Shown: piece after piece, positions 161 to 11,423 of the stretch | Position numbering within the stretch: the stretch's first letter is position 1 | Layout: each line of letters starts with the position of its first letter | Assembly: GCA_020626545.1 (NCBI GenBank) | Contig: JAHKZS010000092.1 | Span: forward strand, 1-11,423 | Length of the DNA stretch: 11,423 bases | Direction of reading: 5' to 3' | DNA from: a bacterium | Lineage (GTDB): Bacteria; Bacillota; Clostridia; Oscillospirales; Acutalibacteraceae | The notes under the pieces: generated by a model | What the model was told of the DNA's origin: nothing | Databases searched by the model: none | The model's input: the letters and a program-made list of their open reading frames with translations, nothing else | Program-made: the position numbers and the translations under genes

Positions 161-194
161 AAAACAAAAACCGCTCTGTCGCTACAGAACGGTT
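161..194 (-). terminator. Intrinsic terminator of the leftward operon
   Basis: Read on the minus strand, AACCGTTCTGT and ACAGAGCGGTT form an 11-bp stem with one T-G wobble, closed by a 4-nt AGCG loop. TTTGTTTT follows at once. This is a textbook Rho-independent terminator placed about 40 nt after the last minus-strand stop codon. On the plus strand the hairpin is followed by GTATTAAAATT, a poor U-tract, so it is best read as acting on the minus-strand genes only. It marks the 3' end of the operon that starts near 9324. Confidence 0.88.
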
Positions 195-233: not shown

Positions 234-662
234 TTATTCAACCGGTTTTTTATATTCAGAGGAGCCGAACGCGATAATCATCTGAAAAACATACGGCATA
301 AAAAACATACCGATTTTAAACCAAGTACCCTTACCGAAGCAATTGCCCATTTTATTCGTGTGTACAGCCTCCATAACGAGAGTGCATACCGTAGCAAAAA
401 TTGTAAACACAGTTTTAAACCATAAAGGCAAATCAATCACAGTAATTACAAAGGTTTCAAACACCCAAATAATCATCTCCAGCGCAAACCAGATATGTTT
501 CATTCCGACGATATGATGAGAAAGAAAAATATTGTAAAAAGGTATAAGCGATTTCCATCCCTTTTCACCGGCTTTTTCGAGAATTCTCCAATGTGAAATC
601 GCTATTTGCAGTACAAATACCGCAAGAAATGCGTACCATATAATTTTCAACAATGTATCCAT
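234..662 (-). CDS. Small DUF5684-like integral membrane protein
   Basis: This 142-residue protein is almost wholly hydrophobic. About four membrane segments are visible, near residues 4-25, 57-78, 82-100 and 113-132. Residues 30-44 (KAGEKGWKSLIPFYN) and 107-113 (NCFGKGT) match what I know of DUF5684-type proteins, which carry a KAGxxGWxxLIPxYN loop and a FGKG motif; no biochemical function is established for them. The start at 662 is supported by GGAGAA (667-672) about 5 nt upstream. It lies 23 nt after the phosphatase stop codon and is the last gene before the terminator, so it is probably co-transcribed with the signalling genes. A role as membrane partner or accessory of the phosphatase is only a guess. 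The family call is from motif memory. Confidence 0.75.
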   Translation of the reverse strand: MDTLLKIIWYAFLAVFVLQIAISHWRILEKAGEKGWKSLIPFYNIFLSHHIVGMKHIWFALEMIIWVFETFVITVIDLPLWFKTVFTIFATVCTLVMEAVHTNKMGNCFGKGTWFKIGMFFMPYVFQMIIAFGSSEYKKPVE

Positions 663-685
663 CTAATTCTCCATATCTATTTTCG

Positions 686-2146
686 TTAATCTGTATTATA
701 TCCGTTATATCTAAAGCTTACCATAGTAATATCGTCGCTTTGGTCATAGCCTTGGACAAAGTTATCGAGCTCAATTTTAACGGTACCGATAAGCTCCTCG
801 GGAGAAGCCGACGAATTTTTATTAAGGGCGTCGACCATTCTCTCTGTTGAAAAAAGCTCATGCTCGCTGTTATTAGCCTCGGGAACACCGTCGGTATACA
901 GGAATAGAGCGTCACCATTTTTAAGAGTAAACTCGTAGTCCTTATAGCGTACATTCTCCATACCGCCGACGATAAAGCTGTGATTATCTTTCAGCACTTC
1001 GTATTCACCGTTTCTGTCACGGAATACAGGGTACTCATGACCGGCGTTAGCGGCTATACCCTTACCTGTTTTAAGGTCGATAATTCCGAGCCATACAGTT
1101 ACGAACATTTCTGCTTTATTATTTTTACAAATACGGTTATTTACGAAGCCGAGTATTTCGCCCGGAGTTCCGCCCATAAGAGCGCGGTCGCTGATAAGAA
1201 TTTTTGCCGCCATCATAAACAGCGCGGCAGGTACTCCCTTATCGGAAACATCCGCGACTACAATCGCGAGATGGTCATCATCCACAAAGAAAAAGTCGTA
1301 GAAATCTCCGCCGACTTCCTTAGCGGTATACATAGCGGCGTATATATCAAATTCGGTTCTCTCAGGGAACGGCGGAAATATATTAGGAACTACGCCGTTT
1401 TGAATACGGTTAGCCGAATCGAGCTCTATCTTAACCTTAGCGGACGCGGTAGCGACACGCTCCTGCTCAATAACCATATTATAACCGTGCTGCGCAATAA
1501 GCACGGCTATCATCGTTATAATCATAAACACTAAAAGTCTGGGTAAGAAACCGTGTATTAATGACCTAACTAAAATTTCGTTAGGGTCGCCGCCAAGGGT
1601 TAAAAGGCTCTCACGAAGCGTACCGTGAATAACTACATTCGTTCCTTCGGCAAGCGGAGGGAAGAAGTTTAGGCCTACTATTCCGAAGTAAGCCGCCGAT
1701 ATAGTTCCGACTAACAGCGACATTATTGAAAGCGCCGAAATAATATACGTAAAGCCTCTCGAGAAATATCGGCTCGACAAAAGAACCGGTATTGTCATAA
1801 TAAGAATCACGTTATGGTTAAGGGCGCTGAACAGCCTTGTCAGCACAACCAGCAGACATATAACCATAAGGTACTTGAGCCAACTTTTCTGTCCTTTAAA
1901 GATAAAATACAAAACAAGCGGAAAAGCTAACTCGAACAAGCCCTGGATCGCGAGCATATTCATACGATGTTTATCAAGCGTAAAAACTCCGAACATGTTC
2001 AAAATCCACGCGACAATAAGTATAACTCCGCAAGCCGCCATAACTATAGCTACAAGGCGGTTGGACTCAACCTCGTTTTTCTTAAAAATTCTTTTAGTGT
2101 CTTCCGAACCGTAGACAGTAAAATACTTTTTTAATCTATCAACCAT
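686..2146 (-). CDS. Membrane-bound SpoIIE/RsbU-type PP2C serine phosphatase
   Basis: This 486-residue protein has about six membrane segments (near residues 31-55, 62-84, 89-106, 111-128, 132-157 and 199-220). A helical linker follows (222-250), then a SpoIIE-family PP2C domain (about 250-481). The metal-binding aspartates typical of the family are visible: D281 in EVGGDFYD, D299 in ADVSDKG, D419 in LYTDG and D471/D472 in QSDD. NAGH is at 367-370. The family dephosphorylates phosphoserine on STAS anti-anti-sigma proteins, and the likely substrate is the STAS protein of the same operon. The polytopic N-terminus is not a recognised PAS, GAF or response-regulator input, so it may sense a membrane or lipid signal. 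The start at 2146 has CTGGAG (2153-2158) upstream and lies 3 nt after the kinase stop codon, so kinase and phosphatase should be translated together. Confidence 0.92.
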   Translation of the reverse strand: MVDRLKKYFTVYGSEDTKRIFKKNEVESNRLVAIVMAACGVILIVAWILNMFGVFTLDKHRMNMLAIQGLFELAFPLVLYFIFKGQKSWLKYLMVICLLVVLTRLFSALNHNVILIMTIPVLLSSRYFSRGFTYIISALSIMSLLVGTISAAYFGIVGLNFFPPLAEGTNVVIHGTLRESLLTLGGDPNEILVRSLIHGFLPRLLVFMIITMIAVLIAQHGYNMVIEQERVATASAKVKIELDSANRIQNGVVPNIFPPFPERTEFDIYAAMYTAKEVGGDFYDFFFVDDDHLAIVVADVSDKGVPAALFMMAAKILISDRALMGGTPGEILGFVNNRICKNNKAEMFVTVWLGIIDLKTGKGIAANAGHEYPVFRDRNGEYEVLKDNHSFIVGGMENVRYKDYEFTLKNGDALFLYTDGVPEANNSEHELFSTERMVDALNKNSSASPEELIGTVKIELDNFVQGYDQSDDITMVSFRYNGYNTD

Positions 2147-2149
2147 ATA

Positions 2150-2560
2150 TTACTCCAGATTCTTTTTAATCTTCAGGATATTATGGCCGTTCTCAAATTC
2201 ATACTCAACCAGATCCATAGACTTTTTAACGAGGAAAATTCCGAGCCCTCCGATTCCTCTCTCCTCAGCGGAAAGAGTAATATCAGGAGTCGCCGCCGAA
2301 AGCGGATCAAAAGGTTTACCGTGGTCAATAAAGGTAATAACTACTGAAAGTGGCGATTTGTCAACCTCAATTCTTACGGTAGCTTTTCCGGTTGCGGGGT
2401 TATAGGCGTAACGGGCTATATTTCCGAACAATTCGTCGATAGCTACGTCTATCTGAATTTGAGCTTTCATCGGGCAATTTAGCTGTTCCAGTTCTTCGTT
2501 TATAAAATTAGTAACTGTTTCTATATTCTCAATAGCGGCGTCAACAGTAAGTTCCTTCAT
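2150..2560 (-). CDS. RsbW/SpoIIAB-like ATP-binding serine kinase
   Basis: This 136-residue soluble protein is a GHKL ATPase of the anti-sigma-factor kinase type. The N box IDELFGNIARYAY (41-53) keeps E43 and N47, which correspond to the catalytic Glu and Mg-binding Asn of the family. The G1 box is DHGKPFDP (79-86) and the G2 box is RGIGGLGIFLVKK (101-113). All nucleotide-binding motifs look intact. Known relatives phosphorylate a serine on a STAS partner and, when free, bind a client such as a sigma factor. No sigma factor is encoded in this window, so the client is unknown. I chose the start at 2560 over an in-frame ATG at 2599 because a perfect GGAGGTG (2568-2574) precedes it and the upstream 13 residues fall inside the esterase gene. 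Its ATG overlaps the esterase TGA in TGATG. Confidence 0.9.
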   Translation of the reverse strand: MKELTVDAAIENIETVTNFINEELEQLNCPMKAQIQIDVAIDELFGNIARYAYNPATGKATVRIEVDKSPLSVVITFIDHGKPFDPLSAATPDITLSAEERGIGGLGIFLVKKSMDLVEYEFENGHNILKIKKNLE

Positions 2561-4221
2561 CAGTTTGCACCTCCGTTTAATAATATTATTATAAGACATA
2601 CGATACCCGATATAATGCCTACTCCTAAGGCGATTTTTAAGAGCGCTTTTTTTACAAACGGAACATTAAAGCTCACGTGAGCGTAACTCGCGCTGATCGT
2701 ATCTCTTAAAAGCGGCATAAGAAGCCTTCGCTGATCTTTTTTGATATCGTATTCAAGCTTTGGTTCTTTTTCCAGAATCATCGCGGCTCTGTCGCTCGGA
2801 TTATACTTTTTCCATTCGAGAGATTCTATCGATGGATTTCCTGTTTTAGCAAACGTTGTCCACATCTCCATAGTTTTATCGGAAAGCTGTTTATCGGCAG
2901 GATTTCCAATATAAATTGTTTCGTCCAAATTACCGAAAACATAAGCAAGCTCTACGGCGTGGCAGGCTCCATAATGTTTTATAGCCGAAGGTTCTTTCCA
3001 GTAATACATATAAGCGTTTCCGCCGTTTTCGGCGTGAGACTGCGCCTGAACAATTGCGGGAAGCCTGAATAAAACCTCGTTGTAGAACTCAGTAATACGC
3101 CAAATATTATGTTCCTTTTGCTCGGGCATAAAATCTTTTACAAGCTTTTTTGCTTCGTCAGACAGAGCGCTGACATCATTTTCGTATCTAACGCTCATAC
3201 CTATACGATAGGGAATAAATCCGCCGAGCTCCCCTATCCAGTAGTTGAGCTCATTGGAGTTAGTTCCGATTAGGATATCGACATCCTTAGTATATCCGTC
3301 GCGATAAGGCTGATACGCGTCTATGGGGATTAGCTTACCGTCGCGCTGCGGGAAATTATTTTCGAGGTCAAGCTTATCGTTAAGTTTCTTCAACTCGGAG
3401 TCGGACAGTTTCATTAAATCGTCCATACAACTCGCTTTGGCTCCCGCTAAAAGCTTACGGGTATATTCCATACATTCCTCTTTGGAATATGTGAGAGCTA
3501 CTGAGCCGCTCTCGGCGATAACCCGGTTAAACAAACCTTTAGCCTCGGGAATAATCGGTAAAAGCGATACGCTTCCTCCTCCGGCGGATTCGCCGAAAAT
3601 CGTTACGTTATCGGGATTTCCGCCGAAAGCTGAGATATTCTTTTTCACCCATCTTAGCGCTTCTATCTGATCTAATATTCCGAGGTTCGGGGCGTCGGGG
3701 AAATCCTCGCCGCCCTTAACTTCGCTAAAATCAACAAAACCCGTAAGTCCTATTCTGTATCCGACCGTAACAAGCACAATATCGGGATGAGCGGAAACGA
3801 GATTCACTCCGTTATAAAGCGGATCCGCTGTTCCGCCCCAACCGTACGAGCCGCCGTGAAAAAATACCATTACCGTTTTATTCTTTATGGTAAGGTCAGT
3901 CCAAATATTCAGATAAAGGCAATCCTCGCTCTGAGGATAATAGGAAGCTCTCTCGCTGTTCCATTCTACCTGAATCGGAGATCTGCCGTTATAGTAAGCC
4001 TCAAAAGCTTTATCGCTGTCTTCTACAGGCTCGGGCTTTTTCCAACGACGGTTTCCCGTCGGAGATTTAGCGAAAGGTATTCCGCGGAATTCTACCGTTT
4101 TTCCTTTTTCTTTTCCGACGAAAGTTCCGTTATAACACTTTACGGCTACTTTTTCATCGAAACTTTGTATCTCTTTATTTACTCCATAGCTGTTTTTGAT
4201 ATCAGCCTTTGATGTACTCAT
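2560..4221 (-). CDS. Type B carboxylesterase (alpha/beta hydrolase) with C-terminal membrane anchor
   Basis: This 553-residue protein has the hallmarks of carboxylesterase family B: EDCLYLNIW (99-107), oxyanion-hole HGGS (122-125), nucleophile elbow GESAGGGS with S212, acid residue E324 in TNSNE and H421 in YGACHAVELAYVFGN. The triad is complete, so an active ester hydrolase or acyltransferase is expected. There is no signal peptide. Residues 527-549 form a single hydrophobic helix preceded by KK and followed by only a few residues, which looks like a tail anchor holding the catalytic domain at the cytoplasmic face of the membrane. The start at 4221 has AGGAG (4228-4232) upstream and overlaps the NRPS stop by 4 nt (ATGA). 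Lying directly behind an NRPS without a thioesterase domain, it may release or trim the product; that is inference. Its true substrate cannot be read from sequence. Confidence 0.93.
   Translation of the reverse strand: MSTSKADIKNSYGVNKEIQSFDEKVAVKCYNGTFVGKEKGKTVEFRGIPFAKSPTGNRRWKKPEPVEDSDKAFEAYYNGRSPIQVEWNSERASYYPQSEDCLYLNIWTDLTIKNKTVMVFFHGGSYGWGGTADPLYNGVNLVSAHPDIVLVTVGYRIGLTGFVDFSEVKGGEDFPDAPNLGILDQIEALRWVKKNISAFGGNPDNVTIFGESAGGGSVSLLPIIPEAKGLFNRVIAESGSVALTYSKEECMEYTRKLLAGAKASCMDDLMKLSDSELKKLNDKLDLENNFPQRDGKLIPIDAYQPYRDGYTKDVDILIGTNSNELNYWIGELGGFIPYRIGMSVRYENDVSALSDEAKKLVKDFMPEQKEHNIWRITEFYNEVLFRLPAIVQAQSHAENGGNAYMYYWKEPSAIKHYGACHAVELAYVFGNLDETIYIGNPADKQLSDKTMEMWTTFAKTGNPSIESLEWKKYNPSDRAAMILEKEPKLEYDIKKDQRRLLMPLLRDTISASYAHVSFNVPFVKKALLKIALGVGIISGIVCLIIILLNGGAN
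2568..2574 (-). promoter_or_regulatory. Ribosome binding site of the RsbW-like gene, inside the esterase
   Basis: On the minus strand the sequence reads GGAGGTG, 7 nt before the ATG at 2560. It also encodes the Gly-Gly-Ala tail of the upstream esterase. It decides the start of the kinase gene against the longer in-frame alternative and, with the TGATG overlap, suggests translational coupling. Confidence 0.8.
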
Positions 4222-7205
4222 TTCTTTCTCCTGAAAATAGCAGCGACTGTTTCGAAGAAGTTTTTCTTATCGCTGAGTTTCTTACGAAGCTCGCGAATAG
4301 TTATATCGTTCTGGGAATTATGTGTTACGAGCGACTGAGCTGTATTAACATAAATATCCTTAAAGCGCTCGATGCTCGAATCCTCGTATCTGCTCGCGGC
4401 ATAGTCAATCATAAGTACGAGTCCGTCGCTTCCGTCGAGAATCTCCATATCGAGAATAGTCTGGGAAGCCGCCTGGTTCTGTCTTATATCAATCGACTCT
4501 ACATTAAGCTCCTCAAGTCCGCCCATATCACGAATATCCTGCTGATACAGGAGATACGCGGTATCGTCGCTTACAACCTCGCTGTCCTTTTCAACATACG
4601 GATAACAGCTGTGTTCGATACCTTTTTGAACCTGAGTATGAACATCCGCGAAGAGCTCTCTTAGAGTCATTTCATCCTTAAGCCTTACGCCTATGGGTAA
4701 ATCCCTGAATAAAAGGCCTACCGACGACATACTGAGCATATCCTCTCGTCCGTTATAAATCCACGAGAGTTTAATATCATCCTTTTCGTTGTAAATAGAA
4801 ATCGCAAGCGCCGCGACAGAGATAAAGAACTCGTTTCGGCTGATTCGATACTGTTTTTCCATAGCCTTCATCTGAGGCTGTTCGATACCGATTTCCGCGA
4901 AAATTTCACCCATTTCATTCTCGCGGGATTCGTGATCGGTTTCCGGATAACACGACCACTCTATTCCGTCATAGGTATCCTCGAAGTACTTTTTACTCTC
5001 CTCGTAGAAATCGGTATTCTGCTCGTTCTCTCGATTTTGGAGCATTAAATAGTAATAGTCGGGATCGGGCATCATACCCATATAAATTTTACCGACATTA
5101 CCCATAAACAGTTTAAGCGATGTACCGTCGAATAAGGTATGGTGTACATCGAAGAAGATATAACCGTTCTTCTCGGTTTCGAATACACGACAGCGGTAAA
5201 GACTTCCGCCGATAACCTTAAACGGCTGTACAAGCGTATCTTTGAGACTGTCGAACTCAAACTCGCTTATCTTCTCAACCTTAATATCTCTTAAGCTATC
5301 AGGTACATATTTCTGAACAATCTCACCGTCGTCATTAAAATTAAACTGGGTTAAAATCGCGGGATGGTGTTTAATTGCCGCCTGCATAGCGTCGGCGAGT
5401 TTATCGAGGTCGAACACATCCTTATCCACTTTCTGCATAGAGAATAGGTTGTACATAGTGGATTTAGGGGTATAGAGCTGGTAGTCAACCATATAGAGCT
5501 GTTCGGTTGTAAGCGGATGCTCTGTTTTAAGAGCTCTTTCGTTCTTGACTTCGGGAGCTTCACCGTCATCGTTAGCGTGATTCTCCTCATAAAGAGCGGC
5601 GATTTTCTTCGGACTTCTTCCGCGGAAGATTTCTCCGGAGTTAAGTCCTGTAAGTCCGCTCTGTACGATAAGCTGGATTGACGTAAGCGAGTCGCCGCCG
5701 AGCTCATAGAAATCGTCGTTCACACCGACTCTATCGAGCTTAAGCACTCTCTCCATAGCCTCGCACAACTTCTTCTCAGTTTCGGTTTCGGGAGCTTCGT
5801 ACTCTACGCGGAAGTCCTTAATATCAGGCTCGGGGAGAGCCTTTCTGTCCATTTTTCCGTTGGGTTTAAGCGGAATTTTATCAATCTTAATATAGTAAGC
5901 GGGTATCATATAATACGGAAGGCGCTTCGACAGTTCCTGCCGCATCATTTCGGGGTCAACCTCAATATCGGCTGTGTAATAAGCGCAAAGGTAGCTTTGG
6001 GTATTGTTCTCAAATCCCTTAGCCGCTGCCCAATCAATTCCGAGAACCTGTTTTATAGACGCCTCAATTTCAGCGGGTTCGATACGGTTACCGTTAATCT
6101 TAATCATATCGTTGGAACGTCCGAGAAGAACGTAGTTTCCGTCGGCGTTTTTCATAGCCAAGTCGCCTGTATGATAAAGTCCGCCCGCGAAAGCTTTTTC
6201 GTTTTCTTCGGGGAGGTTCATATAACCTCGAACATATTCATTTACAAAGCAGAGTTCGCCGGTTTCGCCGTCCTCGACAGTATTTCCGTCCTCATCAAGA
6301 AGTTTAATATCGATGTCGATTTCGGGTTTACCTATCGGGCAGGTGTCATAAGCTTTATCAATCTTAAAAATACCGATAGCGAATCCGCTCTCGGAAGAAG
6401 CGTAAACGTTAATCAAATCAAGATTCTTATTATAAATATTGTTAGCGGGCTCGCTTCCGACAAAGAGCATTTTTAAGAACGGGCCTGTCTGGTTACCGAG
6501 CATACGAACATACGACGGTGTAAGGAAAGTAACCGAAATCCTCTTTTCGAGGAAGTGCCTTTTAAGCGCGATGGGGTTCTTTATAGTCGAATAACCGACT
6601 ACGTACATCTTCGCTCCGCGCTTATTGAGGAGCTGAAGAATAACCATAACAGAAGCGACAAAATTCATCGGAGCGAGCAGAGATACTCTTTCTTTATGGC
6701 TGAATAAATCCTTTCCGTCAAGGCTGATGGAACCAATAGACTGCTCCAGATTACCGAACTCGTGTAAAACACCTTTCGGGTTACCGGTAGTACCCGAGGT
6801 ATAGATCGCGTAAGCGGCGTCGTGAGGGTCAACCTCCTCAAAACCTTCGAGCGGCTCGCAGGACATAACTTCCTCCCAGTTATCTCCGCACAGCTCCGCC
6901 TTGCAGCCGCAGTCCTCACGGATATATTTAATACGCTCCGGCGCGTAGGTATCCTCTACAAGCGACCAGGCGGCACCGGCTTTCCATACACCGATCATTG
7001 CGACAATGGGCATAATTCCGCGCGGAAGATTAATAAGCACGAAATCTTCCTTACCAACTCCGTTACTCTTTAGATAGGAATAAACCTTAGCGCTCATATC
7101 GTCAATCTGGGCATAAGTCAAACCCTTTGAATGAGCCTCATCAAATAAAACAGCGGCATTAGGACTGTTTTCGGTATGATCTCTGAGAATTTCAATAATA
7201 GTCAT
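4218..7205 (-). CDS. Stand-alone nonribosomal peptide synthetase, A-PCP-C
   Basis: This 995-residue protein has three domains. The adenylation domain (about 1-455) has A3 YTSGTTGNPKG (135-145), A7 YHTGDL (344-349), A8 GRSNDMIKING (362-372) and A10 NGKMDRKALP with K451. The carrier protein (about 470-540) has the GGDS motif with phosphopantetheine site S506. The condensation domain (about 560-965) has an intact HHTLFDG (688-694) and a GLLFRDLPIGVRL segment (830-842) like motif C5. There is no N-terminal C domain and no thioesterase, so it can load one acid and make one bond to an acceptor supplied in trans or free. By manual alignment to GrsA, the pocket residues are V183, A184, M187, F227, L247, V249, V267, F275 and A276: wholly non-polar, with Val replacing the alpha-amine-binding Asp235. 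This suggests an acyl, aryl or other non-alpha-amino acid. No MbtH or phosphopantetheinyl transferase gene is visible nearby. Confidence 0.93.
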   Translation of the reverse strand: MTIIEILRDHTENSPNAAVLFDEAHSKGLTYAQIDDMSAKVYSYLKSNGVGKEDFVLINLPRGIMPIVAMIGVWKAGAAWSLVEDTYAPERIKYIREDCGCKAELCGDNWEEVMSCEPLEGFEEVDPHDAAYAIYTSGTTGNPKGVLHEFGNLEQSIGSISLDGKDLFSHKERVSLLAPMNFVASVMVILQLLNKRGAKMYVVGYSTIKNPIALKRHFLEKRISVTFLTPSYVRMLGNQTGPFLKMLFVGSEPANNIYNKNLDLINVYASSESGFAIGIFKIDKAYDTCPIGKPEIDIDIKLLDEDGNTVEDGETGELCFVNEYVRGYMNLPEENEKAFAGGLYHTGDLAMKNADGNYVLLGRSNDMIKINGNRIEPAEIEASIKQVLGIDWAAAKGFENNTQSYLCAYYTADIEVDPEMMRQELSKRLPYYMIPAYYIKIDKIPLKPNGKMDRKALPEPDIKDFRVEYEAPETETEKKLCEAMERVLKLDRVGVNDDFYELGGDSLTSIQLIVQSGLTGLNSGEIFRGRSPKKIAALYEENHANDDGEAPEVKNERALKTEHPLTTEQLYMVDYQLYTPKSTMYNLFSMQKVDKDVFDLDKLADAMQAAIKHHPAILTQFNFNDDGEIVQKYVPDSLRDIKVEKISEFEFDSLKDTLVQPFKVIGGSLYRCRVFETEKNGYIFFDVHHTLFDGTSLKLFMGNVGKIYMGMMPDPDYYYLMLQNRENEQNTDFYEESKKYFEDTYDGIEWSCYPETDHESRENEMGEIFAEIGIEQPQMKAMEKQYRISRNEFFISVAALAISIYNEKDDIKLSWIYNGREDMLSMSSVGLLFRDLPIGVRLKDEMTLRELFADVHTQVQKGIEHSCYPYVEKDSEVVSDDTAYLLYQQDIRDMGGLEELNVESIDIRQNQAASQTILDMEILDGSDGLVLMIDYAASRYEDSSIERFKDIYVNTAQSLVTHNSQNDITIRELRKKLSDKKNFFETVAAIFRRKK

Positions 7206-7223
7206 AACTCTACCTCACCCAGA

Positions 7224-7520
7224 TTATTCAACAGTAAGGATCTCCGAAAAGCCCGTTACTTCAAATATATCTTTAACGATATCGTTAGCGCCGACGATTT
7301 TCATAGAACCTTGCTTATTCATAATCTTCTGTAAGGAAAGAAGAACTCTAAGTCCCGCGGACGAGATATAATTGAGCTGGGTAAAGTCGAGCACAAGCTC
7401 CTCTACCCCGCCGAGATCCGCCTTCGCCTTTTCTTCGAACTCCTTTGAGGTAGATGTATCAACCCTGCCCTCTACAATGAGTTTAAGTGTAGATCCGTTT
7501 TTTTCGTTTTTAATAGTCAT
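7224..7520 (-). CDS. STAS-domain anti-anti-sigma-like protein
   Basis: This 98-residue protein is a single STAS domain of the SpoIIAA/RsbV type. The phosphorylation loop reads YISSAGLRVLL (51-61). By alignment with DSSGLG of SpoIIAA, S54 is the serine expected to be phosphorylated, and S53 takes the place of the usual Asp, a variant I know from many clostridial STAS proteins. In the known systems the unphosphorylated form binds an RsbW-type kinase and frees its client, while a PP2C phosphatase resets it. Both partner types are encoded in this operon, as is a HATPase domain on the transporter immediately upstream. The start at 7520 has AAGGAGA (7528-7534). It sits 34 nt after the transporter gene and 18 nt before the NRPS. 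Which of the two HATPase domains it binds is open. Confidence 0.92.
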   Translation of the reverse strand: MTIKNEKNGSTLKLIVEGRVDTSTSKEFEEKAKADLGGVEELVLDFTQLNYISSAGLRVLLSLQKIMNKQGSMKIVGANDIVKDIFEVTGFSEILTVE

Positions 7521-7554
7521 AATACTATCTCCTTTATATTTTATTTATATTTTT

Positions 7555-9324
7555 TTACAAATGAATTGTCAGGTTATTCAGCTCCATAGTGCTGAGGTAG
7601 TTTACGTCTTTAGCCATTCCGCAGACCATACGGATTCCGATATTAGAGGCGGGATCGTCGCTTTGGTGAAGCTTTATCCACTCGGTCGGATCAAAAAGCT
7701 TACAGTCATCGCGGAAACGGATTTTCCAGCCGTCCTTAAGCTTCATTACTCGGATATCTATGCTGTGCGGTTTTTTATCGGCAAAACCAAACTCTACGAT
7801 ATTATTACAAAGCTCCTCGACGAACAACGAGGTGAGCGTAGCGATTTTAGGCTCGGCTCCTTTTTCCTCGCAAAACTCGTACACTTTAGACGAAACCGGA
7901 ATAATCTCATCAGCTTTAGTAACACTGGTTTCAAACAAGTTTTCTTCCCCAACGCCGAAAGGCTCTTTAAGAAACAGAAAATCGGAAAACTTATACGGTA
8001 TTCCGCGTTTTCTTACGGCGGCGTAGATGTAAATTGTAATCAGCGTTAACGATTCTCCGATTATAAACGACAGCCACACCGCGTCGGTCTGAAGCATACC
8101 CGCAAGAGCGAGGGCGGGAAGCACCATATATACGAATCCCTGCAAGAAACAGAAGATATTGGTAAGCACCATTCTTCTTAACCCTTGGGTGTAATTTACA
8201 AAACAGATATTAAGTCCGTAGAGTATAATACTAACGGAGTAGAACCTAAGTCCGCGCGCGGCGAGCTCGACCATTTTAGCTCCGTCGGCGGAACCGAAAA
8301 CTCCCGCTATTACGTCGGCAAAAATAAATACTACCGCCGCTAAAAATGTGCCGATAATAAGGGCTGTTTTTACCGAAACTTTTACGAGGGCGTGAGCTCC
8401 CGAGCGATCCTCCTCACCGAGTATCATTCCCGAAATCATCGCCGTAGTAAGTCCGACACCTATCATAACGGATGAGGTAAAATTAAAAACTGTATTTAAA
8501 ACTCCGAACGCCGCTACAGCGGTACTCGATAAAACCGTCGCGACTAAAATCCTATTCAGAACGCCGTTACGGAGCATAGCCGCGACCGAACCCGCCGCCG
8601 AGGACGAACCTGTAGATAATAAATCACCGAGGTCTTTTAGCTTAAGGTTTTTTAGCGACATTTTAAATATAATATCCTTCTTGGTAAAATGCAGAAGCAT
8701 AATTACGAGAGCCGCGAAGTAGCTTATCGAAGTAGCGAGCCCCATTCCGAGCATTCCGCCGTGGATAATGAGAGCGTTTAATAAGTCGCCCGCGACATCG
8801 AGCAAGGTCATAACGACTACCGCTACAATAACCCTGTTCGGATCGCCGTCGAGGCGCATAAGCGAGTTGAACTCAAAAAGCAAAAGTACAGAAGGAAACG
8901 CGAATAACATTCCGAGCAGATAATCGGAAACGAGTGGTAAAAGGTGGGCTGATTTACCGTTAGCGCCGAGCAAGACGGCTATATTCCCTCTAAATAAGAA
9001 AACTACAACCATCATAACCGCCGCCAAAACAGCGGTAACCACCATACACATCGAAAACACACGGCGCGCTTTATCAGCTCTGCCCGCGCCGAGATGCTGG
9101 GCGCAAACTACCTGAGCGCCTGTAGCGAGTATGCCGCTGAACGCGGTCGCGAGGTTGATAATAGGAGTAACAAGTCCGTAAGCCGCCATACTGTCGGGGC
9201 CCAGAAATCTTCCGATTACTATACCGTCGATTACCACTCCGAGCATTGTAGCTATCGCCGCCGCGATTATGCTGATTACGGAATTTCGAAACAGCTTACT
9301 TATTATCCTATTATTTTTCTCCAT
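7555..9324 (-). CDS. MATE-family exporter fused to an RsbW-like HATPase domain
   Basis: This 589-residue protein has two parts. Residues 1-440 form a MATE transporter with about twelve membrane helices; the family normally has about 450 residues and exports drugs or metabolites by cation antiport. Residues about 460-589 form a cytoplasmic HATPase domain resembling the anti-sigma kinase family. Its N box FVEELCNNIVEFGF (501-514) keeps E504 and N508, aligned to E43 and N47 of the kinase encoded at 2150-2560. The G1 box is weakened (DDCKLFDP, 539-546, with Cys and Leu where Gly and Pro are usual) and the G2 region keeps only NIGI (561-564). ATP binding may therefore be altered. As first gene of the operon it probably exports the NRPS product and may be gated by the adjacent STAS protein (inference). 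The start at 9324 has AGAGGAT (9333-9339) upstream. A frameshift-free single frame covers both parts. Confidence 0.92.
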   Translation of the reverse strand: MEKNNRIISKLFRNSVISIIAAAIATMLGVVIDGIVIGRFLGPDSMAAYGLVTPIINLATAFSGILATGAQVVCAQHLGAGRADKARRVFSMCMVVTAVLAAVMMVVVFLFRGNIAVLLGANGKSAHLLPLVSDYLLGMLFAFPSVLLLFEFNSLMRLDGDPNRVIVAVVVMTLLDVAGDLLNALIIHGGMLGMGLATSISYFAALVIMLLHFTKKDIIFKMSLKNLKLKDLGDLLSTGSSSAAGSVAAMLRNGVLNRILVATVLSSTAVAAFGVLNTVFNFTSSVMIGVGLTTAMISGMILGEEDRSGAHALVKVSVKTALIIGTFLAAVVFIFADVIAGVFGSADGAKMVELAARGLRFYSVSIILYGLNICFVNYTQGLRRMVLTNIFCFLQGFVYMVLPALALAGMLQTDAVWLSFIIGESLTLITIYIYAAVRKRGIPYKFSDFLFLKEPFGVGEENLFETSVTKADEIIPVSSKVYEFCEEKGAEPKIATLTSLFVEELCNNIVEFGFADKKPHSIDIRVMKLKDGWKIRFRDDCKLFDPTEWIKLHQSDDPASNIGIRMVCGMAKDVNYLSTMELNNLTIHL

Positions 9325-9389: not shown

Positions 9390-9503
9390 TATTTTTCGTA
9401 GCAAATAAATAATTTTCGCGTAATTTTTTTCGATTATCTTTTAAATGTATAAAACAAAGGTGAAAATCTAAAAACGAATCCCCAAAAAATTCTATTAATA
9501 AAC

Positions 9504-9530
9504 CAACAAATTTCAAACAATAATTTGTTG
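9504..9530. repeat. 9-bp perfect inverted repeat, possible operator
   Basis: CAACAAATT (9504-9512) and AATTTGTTG (9522-9530) are perfect inverted copies separated by 9 nt, so half-site centres are about 18 nt apart. The right arm overlaps the first three bases of the candidate -35 TTGAAA (9528-9533) of the amylase. A dimeric repressor bound here would block that promoter. There is no T-tract to make it a terminator. The regulator is unknown. Confidence 0.5.
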
Positions 9531-9569
9531 AAAATGCGGATATATTTTAGATAATATATTTGTTATAAT
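9528..9569 (+). promoter_or_regulatory. Promoter region of the alpha-amylase
   Basis: Two overlapping options are visible. One is TTGAAA (9528-9533), 16 nt, GATAAT (9550-9555). The other is an extended -10, TGTTATAAT (9561-9569), with a perfect TATAAT at 9564-9569 but no good -35. The extended -10 gives a leader of about 37 nt before the ATG at 9614. I cannot decide between them by eye. Confidence 0.6.
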
Positions 9570-9598
9570 TAAAGTGTTAAATTTTATTTAGAAGCTTT

Positions 9599-9613: not shown

Positions 9614-11423
9614 ATGAAGAAAAAGATTCTAGCTATCGCGCTGACTTTAGCACTTGCGGTATCTGTTTTCTCCGTAACTCCCGCTGTACAGGCGGCTGAT
9701 ACGGAAAAAGCCGAAACCTCCGCCGGCACTTTAAAAAGCGCGTCGGACTTTTCGTGGGATAACGCGTCGGTTTACTTTTTACTTACCGACCGATTTAACA
9801 ACGGAAAATCCTCTAACGACCACGCCTACAACAGAAGTCTTAACAAGAGCGGACAGGTTACATACGGACGCTCAAAAGACGCTTCGTTCCACGGCGGAGA
9901 CTTTGTAGGTATTACTAAAAAAATCGAAGAAGGCTATTTCGACGATTTAGGCGTAAACGCTCTATGGATTTCAGCTCCTTACGAGCAGATGCACGGTTAT
10001 TGTATAGCGGGTACAGGTAAATCGGGCTCCTTCGCTCACTATTCATACCACGGCTATTACGCTCTCGACTTCTCTCAAACCGACCAGGCTTTCGGTACCG
10101 AAGAAGAATTTCAAACTATGGTAGATACCGCCCATAAGCACGGTATAAGAATTGTACTCGATATAGTAATGAACCACGTTGGATACAACACCCTCTACGA
10201 TATGAATGAGTACGGCTTCGGTAAGCTTAAAAACGGCTGGGAAACTCCTTATTTTGAACACACAATCACCGACAGTTCGGATAACGGTTACCACTCTTTT
10301 ATAGATTACTGGGATTCAAGCTGGACAAAATGGTGGGGCCCTCAGTGGATCAGAGCAGGTCTCGGCGGCGGATATGAAAACGGTGACGGAAGTGATTTAA
10401 AAGGAAATCAGGTTTATCTTCCCGACTTAAAAACAGAAAACTCCGCTTCCCTGGATATTCCCGAAATTCTTAAAACAAAATGGAACAAAGAAGGTACTTT
10501 CTCTAAGAAACAGAGCGAGTTAAACAACTACTTCACCAAAAACAATAAAAGTAAGACTGTAAGAAACTACCTCGTATTCTGGCTTACACAGTGGGTTGAG
10601 AAATACGGCGTAGACGGTTTCAGATGTGATACAGCTAAGCACGTTGAGTTCGAAAGCTGGAAGGCTCTAAAAGAACAGGGTCTTAAATCACTTAAAACCT
10701 GGAGAGCTAATAATCCGAATAAACCCGGCGCCGACTGGGATGAGGACTTCTGGATGACAGGAGAATGTTTCCCGCACGGTTTAAGCTACGACGGTTTCTA
10801 CACTCAGGGCGGATTCGACTCAATGATTAACTTCTCGTTCTGCTCAGGTCAGCCCTTCGACGGAAGCTCAGGCGGCGTACCCGGTTCAGGCTCAATCAAT
10901 AACACTTACGCCGATTACGCTAAACAGCTTAATTCAAACGATAAGTTCAATGTACTGTCGTATATTTCATCTCATGATACGGCGCTTTGCCGTCAGGGAG
11001 ATAAAAACATCTATCAGGGTTCGGCGTTCCAGCTTCTCCCCGGAGCAATTCAAATTTTCTACGGCGATGAAACAAACCGTCCCCTTGTAGGCGGAAACTT
11101 CTCCAGCGGTAAAGACCACAACCTCAGAAGCGATATGAACTGGTCGAGCTACGATAAGAACACTCTCGCTCACTGGCAGAAGGTCGGCAAGTTCCGCTCC
11201 CGTCACGTAGCGGTAGGCGCGGGAAGCCACGCTAACCTCAGCGCTACATCGGGAACAGCGTTCGCGCGTACATACAACAAAAACGGCGTTACCGATAAAA
11301 TAGCGGCTTGTATAGGCGCGGGCAGCAACTCTAACGTAACGGTAACTCTTAACAACACTTTCCCCGACGGAACAGTTGTAACAAACGCTTACGACGGCAA
11401 AACAGCTACAGTTTCGGGCGGAA
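9614..11423 (+). CDS. Secreted GH13 alpha-amylase, MalS-like, 3' end cut by the window
   Basis: The frame is open from 9614 to the right edge (603 codons seen, no stop). Residues 1-27 form a signal peptide: MKKK, a hydrophobic core and a likely cut at VQA/AD. The catalytic TIM barrel starts near residue 48. The four GH13 regions are visible: I DIVMNH (183-188), II GFRCDTAKH with nucleophile D339, III GECF with acid/base E384, and IV ISSHD with D455. Segments such as LLTDRFNNG (56-64), FHGGD (92-96) and NALWISAPYEQMHG (115-128) closely resemble E. coli MalS, so I place it near that GH13 subgroup. Residues about 520-603 look like the start of the beta-sandwich domain C. It should cut alpha-1,4 bonds of starch or maltodextrin outside the cell. 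Carbohydrate-binding modules, a dockerin or a wall anchor may follow beyond the edge. Transcription is divergent from the neighbouring operon. Confidence 0.95.
   Translation, partial: MKKKILAIALTLALAVSVFSVTPAVQAADTEKAETSAGTLKSASDFSWDNASVYFLLTDRFNNGKSSNDHAYNRSLNKSGQVTYGRSKDASFHGGDFVGITKKIEEGYFDDLGVNALWISAPYEQMHGYCIAGTGKSGSFAHYSYHGYYALDFSQTDQAFGTEEEFQTMVDTAHKHGIRIVLDIVMNHVGYNTLYDMNEYGFGKLKNGWETPYFEHTITDSSDNGYHSFIDYWDSSWTKWWGPQWIRAGLGGGYENGDGSDLKGNQVYLPDLKTENSASLDIPEILKTKWNKEGTFSKKQSELNNYFTKNNKSKTVRNYLVFWLTQWVEKYGVDGFRCDTAKHVEFESWKALKEQGLKSLKTWRANNPNKPGADWDEDFWMTGECFPHGLSYDGFYTQGGFDSMINFSFCSGQPFDGSSGGVPGSGSINNTYADYAKQLNSNDKFNVLSYISSHDTALCRQGDKNIYQGSAFQLLPGAIQIFYGDETNRPLVGGNFSSGKDHNLRSDMNWSSYDKNTLAHWQKVGKFRSRHVAVGAGSHANLSATSGTAFARTYNKNGVTDKIAACIGAGSNSNVTVTLNNTFPDGTVVTNAYDGKTATVSGG

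Follow-up and report, generated by a model that had tools for sequence, protein, structure and literature searches.

Organization of the operon

The window analysed here is one whole contig (G000:C51) of 11,423 bases, from a draft genome of 1.86 Mb that is 87% complete. It carries a run of seven co-directional minus-strand genes, from 9324 down to 234, in which a nonribosomal peptide synthetase (NRPS), a carboxylesterase and a MATE-family exporter are found together with the three protein types of a partner switch. The intergenic distances in transcription order are 34, 18, -4, approximately -1, 3, and 23 nt, with none above 34 nt, and the Pfam matches, gene by gene, are MatE with HATPase_c_2; STAS; AMP-binding, PP-binding and Condensation; COesterase; HATPase_c_2; SpoIIE; and DUF5684. 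A first-pass annotation of this DNA had already given the seven open reading frames (ORFs), their short gaps, the terminator at the end of the run and the domain assignments, and all of these are borne out. The features are as follows.

7555..9324, minus strand: MATE-family exporter (approximately residues 1-450) with a C-terminal HATPase_c_2-like domain (474-587), 589 amino acids (aa) (Pfam)
7224..7520, minus strand: STAS protein, 98 aa, SpoIIAA/RsbV-like, with the acceptor serine in YISSAGL (Pfam; TIGR00377 above cut-off)
4218..7205, minus strand: NRPS of adenylation, peptidyl carrier and condensation domains (A-PCP-C), 995 aa (Pfam)
2560..4221, minus strand: type-B carboxylesterase of 553 aa with the catalytic triad conserved (Pfam COesterase)
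2150..2560, minus strand: RsbW/SpoIIAB-type serine kinase (HATPase_c_2), 136 aa if translated from 2560, its likely start (Pfam)
686..2146, minus strand: SpoIIE-type PP2C phosphatase, 486 aa, metal-binding Asp kept (Pfam)
234..662, minus strand: DUF5684 membrane protein, 142 aa, the final gene in the run (Pfam)
169..194, minus strand: intrinsic terminator with an 11-pair stem, a 4-nt loop and a T-rich tail (sequence)
9489..9580, minus strand: promoter-like sites ahead of the exporter, at 9580-9553 and 9516-9489 (TTAACA-16-TATATT and TTGAAA-16-TAGAAT; consensus matches)

Two details differ from the first-pass annotation. The kinase ORF, which is open from 2599, had been listed from there, but a start at 2560 is the most likely, with GGAGGT in front of it and a product of 136 aa, the same length as several relatives. 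The promoter candidate at the front of the run does exist as a pair of sites, but consensus matches are weak evidence, there being 34 in the window against 20.6 +/- 4.8 expected from shuffles.

NRPS loci related to the window

Genome records were scanned with an alignment of 12 NRPSs at an E-value threshold of 1e-3, and the best 80 of 342 stretches, 67-92% identical, were kept, most of which match the NRPS near full length. One of these (L100) has no central NRPS by the rule used and was excluded, leaving 79 loci; in L111 a STAS ORF overlapping the start of the NRPS was missed by the gene picker and is uncounted. The source titles are mainly those of metagenome bins, many from the rumen or other ruminant gut, and name Ruminococcus, Oscillospiraceae, Lachnospiraceae, Clostridiales, Clostridia, and a few Bacilli/Erysipelotrichaceae. 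An NRPS approximately 70% identical is present in five bins titled Bacilli, Bacillales or Erysipelotrichaceae (L090, L091, L094, L096, L129), which would mean either horizontal transfer or mislabelled bins.

Unbiased clustering of the neighbours within six genes of the NRPS recovers the esterase in 59 of the 79 loci, STAS in 54, PP2C in 28, and the stand-alone HATPase and MATE in 19 each, after which the clusters fall to 10, 7, and 6 loci and then fewer. These rare extra neighbours include c5 (10 loci), the representative of which has no Pfam match, and c6 (7 loci), with a BaxI_1 representative. Counted by label, with fused forms included, the numbers are 61 for the esterase, 54 for STAS, 28 for PP2C, 27 for the kinase HATPase, 11 for MATE-HATPase, and 9 for plain MATE. 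STAS is immediately upstream of the NRPS in 48 of its 54 loci, with a gap of -56 to 32 nt (median 6), and the esterase is immediately downstream in 60 of its 61. Where 6 kb is available on both sides (31 loci), STAS is present in 23, the esterase in 22, PP2C in 14, the kinase in 13, and MATE-HATPase in 8. STAS is also present in 27 of the 30 loci that bear a kinase or a phosphatase. The enzymes are the core of these loci, STAS is their most faithful companion, and the other switch parts come and go as a set.

There are at least six gene arrangements among the loci. The first-pass annotation had proposed conservation of the order MATE-HATPase, STAS, NRPS, esterase, kinase, PP2C as a check on the system; among the loci seen, this exact order is common to the window, L056, L058, and L083 only, but the linkage itself, in several orders, extends well beyond close strains. 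In L064 and L082 the order is PP2C, kinase, MATE-HATPase, STAS, NRPS, esterase, and in L059, L065, and L068 it is the same with PP2C and kinase fused. There is no exporter in L066, L075, L079, and L107. In L109 PP2C and kinase lie behind the NRPS and the esterase is absent, while L125 and L132 have NRPS, plain MATE, STAS, and PP2C with kinase (fused in L125), and L127 is alike with only PP2C detected. Two of the records are not titled as bins: L077 (Ruminococcaceae bacterium P7) reads PP2C, kinase, STAS, NRPS, while L085 (Lachnospiraceae bacterium AC2029) has NRPS and esterase and, over 9 kb, no switch gene. The loci with a plain MATE behind the NRPS, where the esterase would otherwise be, are L074, L089, L103, L119, L125, L127, L130, and L132, and in L103 and L130 MATE genes flank the NRPS on both sides.

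Eighteen loci, some of them cut by contig ends, have STAS, NRPS and esterase only, with no exporter within six genes. The fact that 12 of the 79 carry NRPS and esterase alone, again with some cut by contig ends, is why the switch is read as an attached controller, outside the chemistry itself. The linkage of the switch to biosynthesis is real, recurrent, and independent of gene order.

The distances between STAS sequences co-vary with those between NRPSs (Mantel rho 0.47, 49 sequences, 0 of 2000 permutations), as do those of the esterase (rho 0.34, 61 sequences). For STAS and the NRPS such co-variation would be expected if the genes travel together, and linked inheritance alone would give the same result.

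Switch genes beside other NRPSs

Forty same-family NRPS regions were picked by hand among the matches listed. Short frames, which were for the most part condensation domains standing alone, were left out, as were three possible hits (G535:C38, G662:C17, G016:C24), the window, and the NRPS loci that had been fetched previously (G084:C13, G073:C67, G121:C140, G000:C195), all four of which adjoin STAS, kinase, PP2C or MATE-HATPase. The last of these, on contig C195, is a second NRPS locus in the window's own genome, with a STAS gene at its head. A STAS, PP2C or kinase gene is beside 17 of the 40 regions, and when five window orthologues are removed the number is 12 of 35, in seven genera. Among 20 arbitrary 20-kb family stretches, taken at fixed positions in 12 genomes, there is one such case, a lone STAS (Fisher p 0.013 against the 12 of 35), and among 20 NRPS loci of other families, also hand-picked among the matches listed, there is likewise one with a switch gene. 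The non-orthologous synthetases that are linked to a switch vary in size, at 1417-1463, 1976, 2231-2461, and 2993-2998 aa. Those of 1417-1463 aa are a second NRPS type, around which PP2C, kinase and STAS are encoded separately, seen in L185, L188, L189, L197, and L208, from three related genera.

These data bear on whether there is any direct coupling at all, or whether switch and NRPS genes are co-located merely through mobility or co-expression. The variable gene orders and the loci without a switch would fit such a co-location, as would the abundance of switch proteins in the window's genome, where 9 STAS, 5 HATPase_c_2, and 5 SpoIIE matches are above cut-off. Against it are the co-directional gaps of a few bases, the association with differently sized NRPSs in other genera, and the co-variation of STAS and NRPS distances, though for the last linked inheritance would suffice. 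An absence of direct coupling is considered very improbable.

The exporter and its HATPase domain

The HATPase_c_2 match in the exporter scores 34.9 bits against a Pfam cut-off of 27.4, so that the second HATPase reported in the first-pass annotation is present; it is degenerate, and unlike a second working kinase. All 120 close homologues of the exporter keep E503, E504, N508, and D539, yet 113 of them have Cys at the G1 glycine, and the G2 region, with the sequence NIGIRMV, lacks the GxGLG lid. The domain is under selection and would hardly be a normal kinase. Because it is conserved yet lacks the glycine-rich ATP lid, it reads as a receiver, and the simplest reading is that it imitates the kinase. 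Conserved cysteines are a further feature of this domain, with C485 invariant in 37 aligned sequences and C541 and C568 present in 113 of 120. C541 occupies the position of the G1 glycine, and a redox or metal role is possible.

MATE-HATPase is the sole fusion of machinery and switch observed. Loci with MATE-HATPase and with plain MATE were taken from one search with equal 1.5-kb flanks, and a switch gene (STAS, PP2C or kinase) is within 1.5 kb in 5 of the 11 MATE-HATPase loci and in 0 of the 16 plain MATE loci (p 0.006). Not among the 11 are L008, where no HATPase domain was found, and L014, which is cut by a contig end and has STAS. In L039 and L040 MATE-HATPase is accompanied by STAS and PP2C with no NRPS nearby, the order in L039 being STAS, PP2C, MATE-HATPase, STAS-APH-HATPase.

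The unique fusion and the loci L039 and L040 could both be taken to mean that the switch governs the exporter only, with the NRPS linked to it as the maker of the cargo. The 18 loci with STAS, NRPS and esterase but no exporter argue otherwise. So does the nearest relative of the window (L055, NRPS 92% identical), which has an operon with every part of the switch and no MATE-HATPase and from which it follows that the exporter is not the sole target. Control confined to the exporter is therefore judged quite unlikely.

The switch proteins

All 65 of the small STAS sequences have the acceptor serine, which lines up with the phosphorylation site of SpoIIAA, taken here to be Ser58. The N, G1 and G2 boxes of the window's kinase are intact, as are the kinase boxes of all 20 stand-alone and all 14 PP2C-fused HATPases. 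All 38 PP2C homologues keep the aspartates that are the metal ligands. N-terminal membrane segments, five by hydropathy, are present in the window's PP2C. Scores against the NCBIfam equivalogs for RsbW and SpoIIAB are well short of the cut-offs. Since contig C34 of the genome carries a conventional STAS-HATPase-sigma operon of its own, the switch set in the window is an additional one.

Another group of STAS proteins carries a second domain, which in all four tested is an APH-like phosphotransferase. These are at 2876-4009 in L134, 5749-6909 in L104, and G000:C264 (5334-6470 in L163), together with 10952-12541 in L039, where the arrangement is STAS-APH-HATPase, an unfamiliar type of switch protein. 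By BLAST, STAS-APH-like proteins are also present in L040 and L054, and in some loci they are beside MATE-HATPase.

The question of a sigma factor

PP2C/kinase/STAS partner switches normally control transcription. Consistent with what the first-pass annotation had reported, there is no sigma factor gene in the operon or anywhere in the window by Pfam, the contig ending 233 nt past the operon with the right flank beyond view. The fetched flanks of the relatives were searched by BLASTP with seven sigma ORFs (three of which were in the query set twice), drawn from the 11 sigma-70 region-2 matches in this genome, some of which are presumably the sporulation sigmas F, E, and G from their context; divergent sigmas may be missed by these queries. 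A sigma factor was found in 2 of the 79 loci. The one in L133 is an ECF-like gene at 28% identity, and the other is sigG (15621-16400) in L055, approximately 114 nt behind DUF5684. The same search also gave matches in two random stretches and at the NRPS loci L179 and L222, which have no switch genes. In the window's genome sigG, 98% identical to that of L055, is on contig C157 behind an apparent epimerase gene, which means that either the operon or sigG has moved.

It could be proposed that this is an ordinary partner switch, in which the kinase would act as anti-sigma factor on a sigma from another part of the genome, with the operon in the regulon of that sigma. The three classical parts are all there in intact form, the genome has its 11 region-2 matches, and sigG behind the operon in L055 is the best evidence for this explanation. 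It is countered by the position of sigG away from the operon in the window's own genome, by the existing STAS-HATPase-sigma operon on C34, and by the lack of any sigma gene that recurs beside the 79 relatives within the reach of the BLASTP queries. It would also leave the HATPase domain of the exporter, and the persistence of STAS next to the NRPS, unexplained. A sigma factor acting in trans is judged unlikely, and as a linked sigma factor was sought and not found, the system is not called an anti-sigma system here.

NRPS and esterase chemistry

The catalytic residues of the NRPS motifs GGDSL and HHTLFDG are invariant across 12 aligned sequences. With residue numbering fixed on 1amu, the adenylation pocket of the window is V-A-M-F-L-V-V-F-A-K, and the commonest code, in 101 of 120 homologues, is VAIFLVIFAK. 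At PheA position 235, Asp is replaced by Val in 119 of 120 and by Ile in the remaining one. This Asp is described in PMC11355689 as the anchor for the amino group of alpha-amino acids, and according to PMC10949194 keto-acid domains typically have an aliphatic residue in its place, although the domain studied there retains Asp. Since the adenylation domain lacks Asp235, a substrate other than an amino acid is predicted, probably a hydrophobic one such as a keto or fatty acid.

The NRPS has a conserved C-terminal aromatic-basic tail, a loose pattern for which is matched by 118 of 120, and the esterase has a C-terminal hydrophobic stretch (residues 523-541), seen in 52 of 63. On the strength of these two features the machinery may be located at the membrane, near the exporter. 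Mean pairwise identity is 74% for the NRPS (80 sequences), 58% for the adjacent esterases (61), and 54% for the adjacent STAS proteins (49), and there are at least 120 protein clusters at 72-100% identity to the NRPS. This unusual conservation, together with the number of clusters, makes it likely that the product is a common metabolite of the ruminant gut.

Proposed mechanism

The preferred interpretation, with a probability of roughly 0.55, is that this is a biosynthesis and export operon with its own sigma-independent partner switch, in the manner of SiaABCD of Pseudomonas aeruginosa, in which the STAS protein is the output and acts on the exporter, the NRPS, or both. The kinase would phosphorylate the serine of STAS, and the membrane phosphatase would remove this phosphate once its sensor part perceives a signal. 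Unphosphorylated STAS would then dock on the degenerate, kinase-mimicking HATPase domain of the exporter or, where that domain is absent, on the neighbouring synthetase, and docking would switch the release of the product on (or off). As for the chemistry, a hydrophobic carboxylic acid other than an amino acid would be loaded on the synthetase and coupled by the terminal condensation domain with a free amine or alcohol, so that the product would be a small acyl conjugate. Direct action of STAS on exporter or NRPS, and with it the control of production or export at the protein level that had been put forward in the first-pass annotation, we infer from gene content and residue conservation.

A wider form of this proposal is held more tentatively, at somewhat less than even odds. 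It would have a new class of partner-switch output, in which STAS binds both the NRPS and the receiver-bearing exporter and gates synthesis and secretion by serine phosphorylation, this having arisen repeatedly around different NRPSs of gut Clostridia.

Several observations weigh against direct action of the switch on the biosynthetic machinery. All 79 loci are mutually related, and a switch gene is absent from 19 of them, many cut by contig ends, and from 7 of the 31 with 6 kb on each side. The nearest relative lacks the MATE-HATPase and has sigG behind its operon. The exporter domain keeps its Glu, Asn, and Asp, and could for that reason still bind ATP; of 25 exporter domains sampled more widely, 10 keep the G1 glycine and 17 the N-box Asn (lost in 8), and none has GGLG. 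In the comparison with other NRPSs the control samples are small and chosen by position, several of the 12 switch-linked loci share a genus, and the profiles, being built from window-like proteins, may have passed over switch genes that belong to other families.

If a phospho-switch does act on the assembly line or exporter, output could be started and stopped without new protein, and a STAS or MATE-HATPase gene beside an NRPS would serve as a genomic beacon for regulated clusters.

Flanking genes and other candidates

Divergent from the operon is an alpha-amylase gene (9614-11422) with a signal-peptide-like start, which runs off the end of the contig. DUF5684 is directly adjacent to the operon only in the window and its nearest relative L055, although L056, L059, and L064 have it within six genes, and because its direct adjacency is so confined it was dropped as a functional part. 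A role in anti-phage defence was rejected, none of the seven proteins having a PADLOC match at E 0.01, as was a plasmid origin, the 2257 plasmid records that match the NRPS all being below 60% identity.

Comparison with known systems

To our knowledge, the control of NRPSs is mostly discussed at the level of transcription. No description of switch genes with an NRPS was found in the open-access literature, as covered by titles and the starts of abstracts and in part by the best-ranked papers only (the best 10-20 of 60-98). For the rumen 5,346 NRPS clusters have been counted (PMC8241843), in the accessible part of which this operon is undescribed, and the word "nonribosomal" does not occur in the main text of PMC8256260.

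The NRPS itself resembles parts of characterized synthetases. Its A-PCP-C core matches AusA at 305 bits over residues 2-879, short of the AusA cut-off of 2500 bits, and LgrA of linear gramicidin at 449 bits in two stretches, the best being 5-948. It differs from both in being a single module that lacks Asp235 and has no release domain after the condensation domain.

The switch has its classical counterparts in RsbU-RsbW-RsbV and SpoIIE-SpoIIAB-SpoIIAA, with which it shares the three protein families, the aligned STAS serine and the intact kinase boxes; unlike those systems, the operon has no sigma gene, and its apparent clients are a synthetase and an exporter. In SypA-SypE of Vibrio fischeri the STAS protein is likewise the downstream output, is inactive if phosphorylated, and acts below transcription, but SypE is a fused kinase-receiver-phosphatase, and an NRPS is not mentioned in the accessible part of the source (PMC10120452).

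The closest parallel is SiaABCD, in which, according to PMC7278518, the switch acts on a co-transcribed enzyme, and a membrane PP2C, a kinase and a small phospho-protein are encoded together with that client. There the switch targets a diguanylate cyclase, Thr-68 is the modified residue of the phospho-protein, the kinase is called unusual, and the operon is one of four genes without biosynthesis or exporter genes. By Pfam there is no diguanylate cyclase (SiaD) domain among the seven genes of the operon in the window, which is therefore considered analogous to SiaABCD and not a member of it. The parts are those known from partner switches, and their linkage to NRPS and MATE operons suggests a switch that acts on the production or export of a metabolite.

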